A program made the translations under genes and the position numbers. This document shows, piece after piece, positions 5,436 to 25,176 of a stretch of DNA of 33,217 nt (positions are counted from its first letter, which is position 1; each line of letters starts with the position of its first letter). The notes beneath the pieces are model-generated. The model was not told the DNA's origin and did not search any database. It saw nothing but the letters and a program-made list of their open reading frames with translations. This stretch comes from a virus, in the IMG/VR virus record IMGVR_UViG_3300029787_000190, positions 1-33,217 of that record. The stretch is one strand, 5' to 3'.

Positions 5436-6001
5436 TGGCAAGAGGTTTATCAAGTGCTGTAAAAACGGAATTAGCAACAGGTAATATAGCACCTGTTCAT
5501 TTAATTCATTTAAACTTTGCTACACCATTATATTTAACTGATTGTAGTTTTGACTTAACCTCAAGTATTTCAGGAAGTTCAAGAACTTATACAGCAAGTG
5601 GTCATATTCTTGGTTTAGGAAATACTCAAGAAGGTACAGAGCCAATTAAAAACTCATTAATTTTAAATTTATCTGGGGTAGATCAAACTTTTATTTCTAT
5701 TGCATTAAATGAAAATATTATAAATGATACTGTGCAAATCTACAGAGGATTTTTAAATAGTTCTAATTCATTAATTGCTGACCCTTTTTTATTATACGAA
5801 GGTTTTATAGATCAGTATTCAATAGAAGATGATACTACAACTGCTGGAATAGGTTTAAGTATTACTTCACATTGGGGTAACTTTGAAAAAGTGTCTGGGC
5901 GAAGATCAAATGATAATTCGCAACAAAGATTTTTTTCTGGAGATAAAGGTTTTGAATTTTCAGCATTAACAGTACAAGATATTAGATGGGGTAGAGAGTA
6001 A
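5435..6001 (+). CDS. Minor tail protein, gpL-like (DUF2163/DUF1833 type)
   Basis: 188 residues. It begins MARGLSSAVKTELATGNIAP with HLIHLNFATPLYLTD, and has FLLYEGFIDQYSIEDD and NFEKVSGRRSNDNSQQRFFSGD near the end. The YEG.ID....D and SGRR.....Q..F.GD segments are characteristic of the tail-tip proteins grouped as DUF1833/DUF2163, functionally like lambda gpL. Lambda gpL carries a cysteine-bound iron-sulfur cluster; here I see only one cysteine (in TDCSFDL, about residue 37), so no cluster is expected. Start and stop are coupled to both neighbours by TAATG. Confidence 0.75.
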   Translation: MARGLSSAVKTELATGNIAPVHLIHLNFATPLYLTDCSFDLTSSISGSSRTYTASGHILGLGNTQEGTEPIKNSLILNLSGVDQTFISIALNENIINDTVQIYRGFLNSSNSLIADPFLLYEGFIDQYSIEDDTTTAGIGLSITSHWGNFEKVSGRRSNDNSQQRFFSGDKGFEFSALTVQDIRWGRE

Positions 6002-9000
6002 TGGGTTGGGGTAGTTTTTTCGGTGGAATAATATCAATAATTAAACCCATAGCATCTTTTATTTCTCCTATACTTTCAACAATTAGTATTGTTTCAATGG
6101 CTCTTACTTGGTTGAGAAAACCAGATGAGCCAGAATTTAATTTTGATACAACAGCAGAAAATATAGCAAAAGGTGTTTTATTAAATAAGACAGCCGCTAA
6201 TGGACAAATACCTATAATTTATGGAACAAGAAAAGTAGGGGGAACTTTAGCTTTCTTAGAAACTTCAGGAACAGATAACCAATATTTATATATGGCTCTA
6301 ATACTTGGAGAAGGAGAGATTGATGATATTACAAAAATATTTGTTAATGATAATGAAGTTACTTTTGATGGAGATTTATCTGATAATACAGAAAGAGATG
6401 TTGCAAGTTCTGACTCTAATTATTTTAAAGACTCAGAAAGTTTAATAAAAGTAAGACCTCACTATGGGTCAGATGACCAAACAGCTTGTAGTTTATTAAG
6501 TACATTAACCTCATGGACAAGCAATCATAGACTAAGAGGTATTGCTTATTTATCATTACGTTTAAAATGGAACTCTGACTCTTTTGGCTCTATTCCAACA
6601 GTTAATGCCATAGTTAAAGGTAAAAAAATTTATAATCCTAATTTAGATGGAACTAAAACAGGGGGTAGTGGTTCACATAGAGAAGATACCTCAAGCACTT
6701 GGGAATATTCAGATAACCCAATTTATCAACTATTAGATTATTTAAGAAATGATAGATATGGAATGGGAATAGCTAATAGTTATTTTGACTCACATTATGC
6801 TGATTGGCAAACTGCTGGGGATATTTGTGATACAAACATAACTCCTTATTCAGGTGCAAGTCAAATTGACTTAATTGATAGTCATGCTGTTGTAGATACT
6901 TCACAAAAAATTATAGATAATACAAAAAAGTTTTTAACAGGTTCAAGATCATTTTTAAATTTTTCGGCTGGTAAATATAAAATTACTGTTGAAAGTTCAG
7001 GAAGTGCATCAATAACTCTTACTGAAGATAATATTATAGGTGGAATAGGAGTCTCAAGTAAAAATAAAAACGAAAGATATAATAGAGTTATAGTAACATT
7101 TATTAATCCTGATAAAAATTACCAAGTAGATGAGGCACAGTTTCCACCTGTAGATGAAACAGGTTTAGCTACTGCTGACCAACACGCAACAATGAAAACA
7201 GCAGATGGTAGTATTTTATTAGAAGGTAGATTTGATATGCCAACATTAACAAGTCCATATCAAGCTCAAGAAATGGCTGAAATAATTTTGCGTAGGTCTA
7301 GGTCAAGTTTAGATGTTACACTTACAGCAGATGGAAACGCAATAGACTTAGTTGTAGGTGATATTGTAAATATAACTCATGCTACTCCAAGTTTTAGTGC
7401 AAAGCCATTTAGAGTTTTATCAACAACTATTAATCCTGACAGTTCTGTTTCTTTGCAACTTACAGAACACCAAGACTCTTATTATACTTTTGGAACACAG
7501 CAAGAAGTGGCAAGTATTCCTGATACAACTCTTCCAAATCCTTTTTCTATTCAACCACCAGCATCTATCACTTTAGCAGATGAGTTAGTTGAATATGCAG
7601 ATGGAATAGTAATAACAAGATTACTAATAACTGTTGGTGCGTCCCCAGATAATTTTGTTGATAATTATGAAGTCCAAATAAAACAAACAAAAGACCAAAA
7701 AGGAATTGCTGTTACTGACTCATTTAAAGAAATATCAGTAGGTAAAATATTAGAATATCAACATTTAAACGTCATAGATGGTGCTGAATATCAAGTTAGA
7801 GTAAGGGCTGTTAACAGTTTAGGTGTTAAATCAACTTTTATATCAGCGACAAGAATAATAGTTGGTGGTGTTGAACCACCAAGTAATGTTGAAGATTTTG
7901 CTGTAGAAATGCACGGACAAGACCATATGAAATTAACTTGGACACCACCAAGCCAAGAAAGTGATTTAGATATTTCTTTTTATGAAATAAGATACCAAGA
8001 TGTTTTAAGTGGTGCTAATTGGCTTAATTCAACAAACTTAGTAAAATGTCCTAGAAGAAAATGTGATAATGTAATTGTACCAGCAAAGACAGGCACATAT
8101 TTAATTAAAGCAGTTGATAAAAATAGTAATACTTCAGCAGAGGCTAATATTGTATCAACAAATATTTCTGGCATACAATCATATAAAACTATTTCATCAT
8201 TTACAGAAACACCAGATATTGTTGGTGCGGCAGATCAAATGGACGCAACATTACCTTTAGCTGTAAAAGTAGATGCAAGTGGTGATGTAGTATTAACTCT
8301 TGATACAGTTACAAATTTTGATGATACTGTTGGAAATTTTGACTCTCCTAGTGGTGATTTTGAGTTAGGTGGTACTGATACAACATCAAACCCAACATTT
8401 TTTAATTCCAATAGAGATGCTAAAGGATTTTATAATTTTGGTAATTCTTTGTCATTATCTAATATTTATGATGGAAACATTGAGCCTACACTTACCTTAG
8501 ATGCAGAAAACCCCTATGATAAATTTGATAGTGGTAAAGGTGCATTATTATTTGACGAGGCAAAAGCACCTTTTGATGGTACTGAGCAAATCCATGCATT
8601 TCACAGAATACAAATAGCAACATCAACAACTTCTTTGGCTGGGTGTACTACTTTTGTAGACATAACACAATCAGCTACCTTTAAGTTTAAATTTGCTAAG
8701 TTTAGATTAAAATTAAGTAATGATGATGACCAAACATCAAGTAATATAAAAACAATGGCAATAAAACTAAATATGGAAGAAAGAATTTTTGCTGAAAGTA
8801 ATTTAGCTACTTCTTCAGGCTCTAAAGTTATCACTTATACAAATCCTTTTTTTGCTGTACCATCTTTAGGAATTGCGGCTCAGAATATGGTTACAGGTGA
8901 TACGTTTACTATAAGTGCAAAAACTGTTAATGGTTTTACTATAGCTTTTGTTAATAGTTCTGGTTCAGCAGTAGATAGAACTTTTGATTATTTAGCAAAA

Positions 9001-22620: not shown

Positions 22621-23037
22621 ATGGAAAATATAATTAAAACTATTTACGACAATACTAAAGATGGGAGACCTAGCTTTAATATTAAAACTGAAGATGGTAA
22701 AACCATGTATGCAAATGAATATGTTTCACTTCAAAGAGGTGATAGTTTCACTTGTGATATGTCTGAAATGAAAACATCAGAACGAGGCAACCAATATTAC
22801 AATGTTAGTAATTTAAAAAAGGTAGGAGATATGCAAACACCACCACCTTATGATGATAGTTACAGTAGAGAAACAGAGGTAAGAACTGTACCAAGTAATA
22901 CAAAACTTAGAGTTGATGCTAGTATGTTTGTTACAGGTGTTGTAACAAGAAGTATGGGGTCAGGTCAATTTGGAGTTGCTGATATTGAACCACTTACTGC
23001 TGAGGCTGTCAAAGTACATCAAAAGTATTTTGGTTAA
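22621..23037 (+). CDS. Putative OB-fold, single-strand-binding-like protein
   Basis: 138 residues after AGGAGAAAAA. N-terminal 65 residues look like an OB-fold: NIIKTIYDNTKDGRPSFNIK, then GKTMYANEYVSLQRGDSFTC and ERGNQYYNVSNLKKV, with aromatic residues on strands (F, Y, Y, Y). A P-rich linker (TPPPYDDSYSRETEVRTVPS) leads to a C-terminal helix-strand part (RVDASMFVTGVVTRSMGSGQ). The pattern is that of small phage recombination or SSB-like proteins. It is next to an HNH nuclease and within the replication region. No family motif is decisive, so this remains a candidate. Confidence 0.45.
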   Translation: MENIIKTIYDNTKDGRPSFNIKTEDGKTMYANEYVSLQRGDSFTCDMSEMKTSERGNQYYNVSNLKKVGDMQTPPPYDDSYSRETEVRTVPSNTKLRVDASMFVTGVVTRSMGSGQFGVADIEPLTAEAVKVHQKYFG

Positions 23038-23284
23038 GTATAAACGCACATTTCTAAAATATTATGGTCTTTCAGAGTATGATACAATTATGTGTTGGTA
23101 TTGTGAGAAAAAGGTTGCAGTTGATTTACACCACATTGAGAGTAAGTCTTTGCAACCTAGTCTCAGAAACGAAGTATCAAATTTAATTCCATTGTGCAGA
23201 GAAGATCACGCAAACTACAAAGTAATATTTAGAGAAAAATATAAACTAAAACAAATTGTTAAGGAGAAAATGAGACATGGTTAA
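23030..23284 (+). CDS. HNH endonuclease
   Basis: 84 residues from TTG 23030, overlapping the previous stop by eight bases; a longer frame from 22970 lies inside the upstream gene and is rejected. The motif is clear: C-x2-C (MCWYCEKK), DLHHIE (tandem histidines of the beta-beta-alpha-metal fold), then NLIPLCREDHANYKV with the third histidine. HNH enzymes cut DNA at nicks or cos-type sites. In HK97-like phages an HNH gene near terminase assists packaging; here it is about 3 kb upstream of it, among replication genes, so either repair or packaging roles are open. Confidence 0.85.
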   Translation: MVKYKRTFLKYYGLSEYDTIMCWYCEKKVAVDLHHIESKSLQPSLRNEVSNLIPLCREDHANYKVIFREKYKLKQIVKEKMRHG

Positions 23285-23465
23285 TAAAGTAAGAGAGTAC
23301 GAACCTCAAAGAGTAGTAATGGAAGTAGATAAAGAATTGCTAGGTAAGTCTAAAGACAAAGTAGAGAAGGAAGTTGGACTAGGGCATTTATCTTATCCTA
23401 AAATATTTAATTATATTATGCAAAAATACATTGGAGAAAAAAATGGCTTTAAGAGAAGTAGTTAA
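23277..23465 (+). CDS. Hypothetical early protein
   Basis: 62 residues. ATG 23277 overlaps the HNH stop by eight bases. MVNKVREYEPQRVVMEVDKE, then VEKEVGLGHLSYPKIFNYIM. The LGHLSYPKIF.YI end recalls small DNA-binding ribbon-helix-helix-like or Arc-type proteins, with a strand (RVVMEVD) then two helices. It could be a small repressor, but that is a guess. It carries the next gene's ribosome site (GGAGAAAAAA) within it. Confidence 0.5.
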   Translation: MVNKVREYEPQRVVMEVDKELLGKSKDKVEKEVGLGHLSYPKIFNYIMQKYIGEKNGFKRSS

Positions 23466-23712
23466 AGAAGTTACAACTTTATATGGTAACTTAATTAGTG
23501 TTCAGGGCAAGTATGTAAAAAGAGCCTATAATGGAAGAGCAAACTTAAAATTAATTTATAAAGGAGATTTTATGATTGTTCCTATGGCTCAATTACACCA
23601 CCCAATAAAAACAAGTATGATACCTGATAAGTTTATTAGAGATAAGATGAATAAACTTTATTATTATCAATGGAAACCTGTTGATGAGAACCAAACAACA
23701 TTATTTGAATGA
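23443..23712 (+). CDS. Hypothetical early protein
   Basis: 89 residues from ATG 23443 (GGAGAAAAAA upstream; the TTG at 23431 lies in the ribosome site). MALREVVKEVTTLYGNLISV, then KLIYKGDFMIVPMAQLHHPI. Small, mixed alpha/beta, ending NQTTLFE. It overlaps the following Mom-like gene by four bases (ATGA), so the two are probably made together and may act in the same process. No family recognised. Confidence 0.55.
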   Translation: MALREVVKEVTTLYGNLISVQGKYVKRAYNGRANLKLIYKGDFMIVPMAQLHHPIKTSMIPDKFIRDKMNKLYYYQWKPVDENQTTLFE

Positions 23713-24359
23713 AAAAATATTCTGTAAAAAGATTATTGAAACAAGAATATATGGAATGGATTTTAAAAAAACATTATGCAAAACGTAGGTGTAGTGTTTC
23801 ATATGCTTTTGGATTGATAAAAGATTTACAGATATTAGGTGTTTGTACTTTTGGTTATCCACCAAACTATATGTATAATAAGGGTAGATGTTTATTTAAT
23901 GATCTTGAGGTAACGACTTTAGAACTTAATAGACTTGTAACAAATGATTTAGATAAAAATTGTTTATCTTACTTTGTTAGTCAATCTTTAAAACTTTTAC
24001 CTCAACCAATGGCTGTTATTTCTTATGCTGACCCTAATGTTAATCATACAGGTTACATTTATCAGGCAACTAATTGGTATTATACAGGTACAAGTACACC
24101 AAAAAAGCGCTACCATTTTGAAGATGGTAGTACGTTTGACATAAGAAGGGGTATTCATACAAAGGGCAATATTGTGAAAGTAGAAAAAATGAAACCTACT
24201 TACCGATACTTGTATTTACTTGGAAATAAAAAGGAGAAAAAAAATATGCTTAGACAATTAAAGATGAAATTATTACCTTATCCTAAGGCTAATAATAAAA
24301 GATATGACTCTAGTGATTTAGAGATGTATATGCAAAATGACTTATTTAATGGAGAATAA
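23709..24359 (+). CDS. Mom-like DNA modification protein (acetyltransferase-related)
   Basis: 216 residues. Segments in order: HYAKRRCSVSYAFGLIKDL, GVCTFGYPPNYMYNKG, ELNRLVTNDLDKNCLSYFVS, QPMAVISYADPNVNHTGYIY and YQATNWYYTGTSTPKKRYHF. The LNRL....KN.LS.FV, SYAD..V.H.GY.YQATN.Y.TG series is the signature of the Mom family, distantly related to GNAT acetyltransferases. Phage Mu Mom converts adenine to N6-methylcarbamoyladenine, which protects DNA from host restriction. All core blocks are present and the length is near Mu Mom, so an active enzyme is likely; the exact modification is inferred. It is in the early operon between a small unknown protein and a nuclease. Confidence 0.72.
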   Translation: MKKYSVKRLLKQEYMEWILKKHYAKRRCSVSYAFGLIKDLQILGVCTFGYPPNYMYNKGRCLFNDLEVTTLELNRLVTNDLDKNCLSYFVSQSLKLLPQPMAVISYADPNVNHTGYIYQATNWYYTGTSTPKKRYHFEDGSTFDIRRGIHTKGNIVKVEKMKPTYRYLYLLGNKKEKKNMLRQLKMKLLPYPKANNKRYDSSDLEMYMQNDLFNGE

Positions 24360-24360
24360 A

Positions 24361-25176
24361 ATGATTGATTTAAAACTATTTGAGAAATTTGAGACAGAAA
24401 ACCACTTACTACCTTTTTCAGCTAGTAGGTTAAAATCTTATAAAAATAATAAAGCTAAGTTCTTTCTTGATTATGTAATGGGTTATCCAAGAGTATCTAA
24501 TTCAAGAATGGAACGAGGTAAAGCTGTTGAAACAGGTTTAGATTACTTTATCAAAAATCAAAACAAAAAAATTTTTGAGTCTTTAAATGTTGCTAAAACA
24601 TTTTATAAATCAGCAACAAATTTTATTGATAATGCTGAAGAAAATCAAAAACAATTTGATATGATTGAGCCTATGCTTTCACAAATCATTTACAGATTTA
24701 CTGATTTTTGGATTTCAAAAGATTATATAGGTAGCCAAATAAGGATTGAGACATTGATTTATGGCTGTCCTTTTATTGGATTTATTGATTATATACTAGA
24801 AGATGAAGAAACTGTTTACATAATTGATCTTAAAACAAAAGATAAGTTTATGGTTACTTATGATGATAAACTACAAATGGCTATTTATAAAAAGGCTTTT
24901 CAGGAAAAAACAAAAAAGAATATTAATTGTAGTTTCTTAGTAGCAACAGGCAAACAGCCTAAAAGAAAAGATCAGAAAGTATGTGAGTTTGTACCTTTTA
25001 TTCCTGATTATGATTACATAGCAGAGGTAGAAACACACATTAAGAGCCTAGAACATACACTTAAACTTGCTAACAGTATTGATGATTTAAAAGTTTTGTT
25101 TGCACCTAAACTTGATGATTATGAATGGAAAGACCCTGATGCTAGAAAAAATAGACAAGAAGTCTGGGGTATTTAG
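24361..25176 (+). CDS. PD-(D/E)XK nuclease, Cas4/RecB-like
   Basis: 271 residues from ATG 24361; ATG 24337 lies inside the Mom gene and GGAGAATAAA is at the later start. LPFSASRLKSYKNNKAKFFL starts the fold, then RGKAVETGLDYF (RG-x4 motif), ETLIYGCPFIGFIDYI (GxxD with D at about 150), VYIIDLKTKDKF (the D-x-K catalytic core) and KLQMAIYKKAF (the QxxxY motif). All five blocks of the Cas4/RecB nuclease family are present. Such enzymes resect or trim DNA ends; in small phages they are paired with recombination or replication genes. There is no cysteine cluster of the Cas4 iron-sulfur type visible. No CRISPR array is present, so a Cas role is not supported. Confidence 0.85.
   Translation: MIDLKLFEKFETENHLLPFSASRLKSYKNNKAKFFLDYVMGYPRVSNSRMERGKAVETGLDYFIKNQNKKIFESLNVAKTFYKSATNFIDNAEENQKQFDMIEPMLSQIIYRFTDFWISKDYIGSQIRIETLIYGCPFIGFIDYILEDEETVYIIDLKTKDKFMVTYDDKLQMAIYKKAFQEKTKKNINCSFLVATGKQPKRKDQKVCEFVPFIPDYDYIAEVETHIKSLEHTLKLANSIDDLKVLFAPKLDDYEWKDPDARKNRQEVWGI

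Follow-up and report, generated by a model that had tools for sequence, protein, structure and literature searches.

The window, a 33,217-nucleotide stretch of marine phage DNA (IMG/VR record IMGVR_UViG_3300029787_000190), encodes a Mom-family DNA modification protein with intact key residues, whose gene is under purifying selection and whose clade-specific C-terminal tail has the conservation pattern of a sliding-clamp-binding motif, as established by sequence comparison and structure prediction (Table 1). The protein is probably a protective Mom enzyme that is tethered by this tail to the host sliding clamp DnaN and modifies DNA during replication. In the proposed mechanism, the Mom-family adenine hypermodification enzyme would shield phage DNA from host restriction, and a flexible C-terminal peptide, QNDLF, would hook it onto host DnaN. 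The host replisome would copy the phage while Mom travels with the clamp, and new DNA would be modified at the fork during its synthesis, ahead of any attack by restriction enzymes. Within this mechanism, we infer catalytic activity, product, target sites, clamp binding, and replication coupling. If the mechanism is true, phage DNA would be modified fast enough to outrun restriction by a modifier riding the replication fork, and a "Mom-like" annotation would become a testable mechanism, with the same device indicated on phage methyltransferases.

Table 1. Features of the Mom locus, with positions in the window, strand, and supporting evidence
Feature	Position	Strand	Evidence
HNH endonuclease gene, early block, true start not fixed	22970..23284	+	HNH, E 1.6e-6
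89-aa protein, no known family, translationally coupled to Mom, ends QTTLFE	23443..23712	+	ORF list, profile searches
QTTLF near C terminus of 89-aa protein, possible second clamp-binding motif	23692..23706	+	Motif scan
Mom-family DNA modification gene, 216 aa	23709..24359	+	Pfam, PHROG, AlphaFold versus 8bv8, dN/dS
GNAT-like catalytic core, residues 1-193, to conserved PYPK (Mu Mom end)	23709..24287	+	Alignment with Mu Mom
C-terminal tail, residues 194-216, predicted disordered	24288..24356	+	pLDDT, tail comparison
QNDLF, residues 209-213, predicted sliding-clamp (DnaN) binding motif	24333..24347	+	Consensus, conservation, tree
PD-(D/E)XK (RecB/exonuclease-like) protein, Mom neighbor	24361..25176	+	PDDEXK_1, E 6.9e-15

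Family membership, fold, and selection

The Mom reading frame is uninterrupted, and its product contains the sequence blocks of a Mom-family protein at residues 72 to 76 (ELNRL), 105 to 108 (SYAD), and 118 to 122 (YQATN). All three core blocks had been picked out in the sequence-only reading, which placed the protein in the Mom family, and database searches bore out that placement. The Pfam profile PF25680 (Mom) matched with an E value of 2.4e-28 and 99.6 bits, against a curated cut-off of 27.1, with residues 4 to 193 covering positions 2 to 202 of the 202 in the profile. PHROG 1384, annotated as a Mom-like DNA modification protein, matched with an E value of 5.4e-47, and phmmer recovered the phage Mu Mom crystal structure (PDB entry 8bv8) with an E value of 3e-10, although the identity to Mu Mom is only about 25 to 29%. 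The 216-residue protein is a true relative of Mu Mom, far beyond chance. Weak Pfam matches to Pallilysin, DIM1, and ATLF were judged to be chance. An AlphaFold model, built from an alignment of 34 window and locus sequences, has a mean pLDDT of 83.7. Its best PDB matches are 8bv8_B and 8bv8_A (E 7.2e-12; TM 0.69 to 0.75), followed by GNAT acetyltransferases, and the window Mom is predicted from this model to have the GNAT fold seen in the Mu Mom crystal structure.

Alignment to Mu Mom, which had been proposed as a check on the key residues, was run, and those residues are retained. H22, E72, R75, D108, and Y118 correspond to H58, E108, R111, D149, and Y159 of Mu Mom, and S87 is aligned to S124 (241-residue numbering), so that H, E, R, S, D, and Y at these positions are common to two proteins of the same family and fold. 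The 8bv8 entry is described as an inactive S124A mutant of Mu Mom; the roles of the other aligned residues are presumed here from general knowledge and from their conservation. Work cited in PMC10002423 describes Mu Mom as an enzyme that binds iron and acetyl-CoA and adds a methylcarbamoyl group to DNA. The window Mom would be catalytically active and would share this methylcarbamoylation chemistry. Its gene has a dN/dS of 0.05 to 0.07 in comparisons with close relatives, below the values for neighboring genes, and of 0.16 at 75% identity. The Mom gene is under strong purifying selection.

The C-terminal tail as a candidate clamp-binding peptide

Mu Mom ends at PYPK and has neither a tail nor QxxLF, whereas the window Mom has both, continuing for 23 residues past this point to the ending QNDLFNGE. 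The pLDDT of the model is below 50 over residues 196 to 216. Bacterial proteins bind the sliding clamp (DnaN) through a motif whose general form is QxxLF (PMC12309361, PMC9690074) and in which positions 1, 4, and 5 count most (PMC12309361). QNDLF fits this consensus and lies in a C-terminal segment that the model predicts to be accessible. Bacterial clamp clients, including PolC (QLSLF), carry the same consensus, often at the same C-terminal position (PMC12309361), but these clients are polymerases and repair proteins, unlike Mom, and the open-licence literature yielded no phage Mom among them. A functional analogy is provided by eukaryotic Dnmt1, in which a PCNA-binding motif tethers a modifier to the sliding clamp, so that modification takes place at the fork on newly made DNA (PMC9690074), although Dnmt1 is an unrelated enzyme that uses another clamp and methylates cytosine.

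When the best 80 viral and 53 cellular relatives were compared, the QxxLF-type ending was present only in the clade of the window Mom. Conservation was counted in 74 non-redundant Mom sequences (<90% identity); an upstream tail signature served to select them, and the figures are conditional on that choice. Position 1 is Q in 71, position 4 is L or M in 71, and in 70 sequences position 5 is F, L, or I. The intervening positions 2 and 3 rank with the most variable columns in the protein, their entropies in the same 74 sequences being 2.6 and 3.5 bits. Positions 1, 4, and 5 therefore appear in this alignment to be selectively conserved, as in known clamp-binding motifs. A further scan, seeded on catalytic peptides rather than on the tail, listed 80 loci, and the majority end in Q..[LMI][FL], a figure that is also conditional, as the scan retains matches nearest to a motif-bearing query. 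Since the 74-sequence set and the scan list were selected through the tail signature or a motif-bearing query, a tree built from the core alone, with the tail left out, is the less biased test. This tree recovered a 22-row clade (support, 98/93) that holds all 20 motif carriers, with L010 and L181 as its rows without the motif, and the motif label changes 3 times on it, versus 18.4 times in shuffles.

These patterns also bear on the reading that the protein is an ordinary Mom that reaches DNA by diffusion and whose tail serves solubility, folding, or DNA binding, QxxLF being inherited and without clamp function. Mu Mom works without a tail, and a sister clade, comprising the Mom-like proteins of Listeria phages A511 and P100, Bacillus phage Riggi, Staphylococcus phage Alsa, and Acinetobacter phage JeffCo (35 to 40% core identity), has a different tail (YELGTR...), which is conserved yet lacks QxxLF; both facts are as this reading would have them. 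It is nevertheless unlikely, given that the 74 sequences show conservation at motif positions 1, 4, and 5 with free variation at positions 2 and 3 and that the same motif ends unrelated phage methyltransferases.

The methyltransferases emerged from the motif background. Endings of the form Q..[LMI]F occur in 15 of 2,983 distinct non-Mom ORFs of the Mom loci, and among these 15 are five members of the N6/N4 DNA methylase family (PF01555) and another of a C5 methylase family. Of the 10 ORFs that carry a methyltransferase signature at the C terminus, 5 have the motif, compared with 10 of the 2,973 others (Fisher 3.8e-10), the methyltransferase ORFs stemming from phages that also carry Mom and thus not being a random sample. 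The phage N6/N4 methyltransferases are unrelated DNA modifiers that share the clamp-type ending. Their endings are QLTLF (L029:1302-2003 and L178:10389-11006), QIKMF (L042:1614-2225), QQRLF (L227:2442-3077), and QTTLF (L228:6754-7473). In the window, 2 of 130 ORFs end in Q..[LMI]F, namely, Mom and the 89-residue protein coupled to it. We lean slightly toward a broader reading, in which a large clade of aquatic-phage Mom proteins and unrelated methyltransferases have gained C-terminal clamp-binding peptides that couple hypermodification to replication through the host clamp, and in which the second, coupled protein of the window uses the same clamp.

ClpXP or Lon can recognize a hydrophobic C terminus, and on these general grounds the terminal QxxLF could be a signal for degradation that keeps a toxic modification enzyme in check. 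Expression of Mom is toxic (PMC12707154), which would supply a reason for such a signal. We consider a C-terminal degron very improbable and have rejected it: in the group of the window Mom, variable residues (NGE, YGEKND, NGEKNDQ, or KYA) follow a constant QxDLF, and a degradation signal gives no account of the invariant Q that lies five residues before the C terminus.

For the tethered enzyme, the clamp would be that of the host. DnaN, Pol A, and Pol III alpha were not found in the phage record, but as this record is linear and possibly incomplete, their absence is not proven; because the phage, for which neither a polymerase nor a clamp was found, would be copied by the host replisome, Mom would ride the host clamp. 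A phage-encoded clamp was considered as the tether and dropped, as none was found in the window. In 18 phages of the clade, a search for a T4-type clamp gave no match, but it gave none in the control either, and a weak DnaN-like match below the family cut-off was obtained in 1 of the 18. This match is a DnaN-like stretch at positions 37244 to 37444 of the 40.7-kb phage record of L178 (PF00712, E 1.7e-6) and is perhaps a phage-encoded clamp. Counting against the tether, QxxLF peptides can bind weakly, as does the QMGLF peptide of Bacillus subtilis DnaE, at about 78 uM (PMC12309361), and G likewise occupies position 2 in many members of the Mom clade. A search of the open-licence literature found nothing that links Mom or phage methyltransferases to clamp binding, and the clade-specific clamp-type tail appears to be undescribed on Mom, the Mom gene itself being common in kind.

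Mom genes also occur in tandem arrays: L014:5897-9978 has five adjacent copies and one further copy from another Mom clade, L013:2173-4256 has three, and L163:2072-3759 has two. Each clade member in these arrays bears its own C-terminal QxxLF, and the copies might have different target specificities.

Gene neighborhood and the coupled small protein

Mom lies within a same-strand block of small genes that runs from holin/endolysin to terminase and has HNH, PD-(D/E)XK exonuclease, and primosomal genes near Mom, for which "early operon," the term used in the sequence-only reading, is a fair description. Mu Mom, in contrast, is a late gene. The same reading had treated the lack of a visible restriction partner as an oddity, but it is the usual state of Mom phages. 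The role of Mom is anti-restriction, and Mu has no restriction partner beside it; the missing partner is therefore no puzzle; the Mom-like genes of the sister clade are likewise single and without a restriction partner.

The direct placement of the PD-(D/E)XK gene 3' of Mom, together with the prediction of Mom domains fused to REase-fold domains in jumbo phages (PMC7824862), would fit a phage restriction-modification pair formed by Mom and the adjoining HNH and PD-(D/E)XK genes. Such a pair is highly unlikely. In L009, a more distant relative with a 75% identical Mom, the order of the nuclease genes is retained and Mom is placed after the primosomal gene; the PD-(D/E)XK protein resembles phage exonucleases in PHROG; and pelagiphages without Mom have annotated HNH genes, some of them also exonuclease genes. 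The linkage between Mom and the nucleases is broken in both L008 and L009, with the nuclease genes still present. Because L009 keeps the nuclease order with Mom elsewhere, the nucleases are not dedicated Mom partners, and a restriction partner next door was discarded; the HNH and PD-(D/E)XK genes look like replication genes rather than Mom partners.

The position of Mom within the early region is shifted in L008 and L009 relative to the window. Compared with window positions 23709 to 25176, Mom is 75% identical in these two records, and its PD-(D/E)XK neighbor is only about 27% identical. By this comparison, Mom is under much tighter constraint than the genes around it. A putative ParB-like protein, recognized by eye, recurs beside Mom in L029, L030, L031, L036, L040, L058, L060, L062, and L079.

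The coupling of Mom by ATGA to an 89-residue protein of no known family, as originally described, was confirmed: the ATG of Mom overlaps the stop of the 89-residue gene (start ATG at 23443) at positions 23709 to 23712, and the small protein has no family match in Pfam or PHROG. Mu Mom is likewise encoded after a small overlapping gene, but the upstream Mu protein, Com, is a CCCC zinc-finger translational activator. The 89-residue protein contains no cysteine, and with no profile match either, it was rejected as a Com-like regulator. Its gene is next to Mom only in the close siblings L002 to L007 and was not detected beside Mom in L008 or L009, and it was not retained as a general Mom partner. 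The C-terminal motif of the protein drifts, to QTNFFE in L005 and to QRLIWE in L006 and L007. In other lineages, small proteins near Mom have endings similar to that of the 89-residue protein, namely, QYQLFEE (L008:2548-2769), QLEFFGD (L009:8871-9086), and QLKLF (L171:1481-1738), the last being a winged HTH protein.

Candidate target sites, host, and occurrence of Mom

The phage has a GC content of 31.6%, in keeping with its description as AT rich, a property from which it had been argued that very many sites could be modified. Mu Mom recognizes the consensus (C/G)A(C/G)NY. Under this consensus, which is that of Mu and may not be that of this phage, 5.5% of adenines in the window are candidate sites, versus 11.5% in Mu. 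Low GC therefore means fewer Mu-type sites, and the counts contradict the argument that AT richness means very many.

TerL of the phage is 53 to 55% identical to that of four SAR11 pelagiphages, and some tail proteins are 75 to 78% identical. Since TerL and the tail proteins resemble those of pelagiphages, SAR11 or a relative is the likely host, as judged from the phage relatives only. At least 231 catalogued phage records match Mom by tblastn. In the pelagiphage isolates HTVC026P, HTVC111P, HTVC112P, and HTVC202P, Mom was not detectable; their structural genes and general layout are related to those of the window phage, but their early region is unlike its own. The window Mom places a DNA-hypermodification enzyme in relatives of SAR11 phages, a placement of which no published mention was found in the open-licence literature. 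HTVC111P (L085), a phage without Mom, carries a DNA methyltransferase gene of PHROG-757 at positions 5853 to 6470, after a DnaD-like gene, an arrangement that suggests a slot for interchangeable DNA modifiers.
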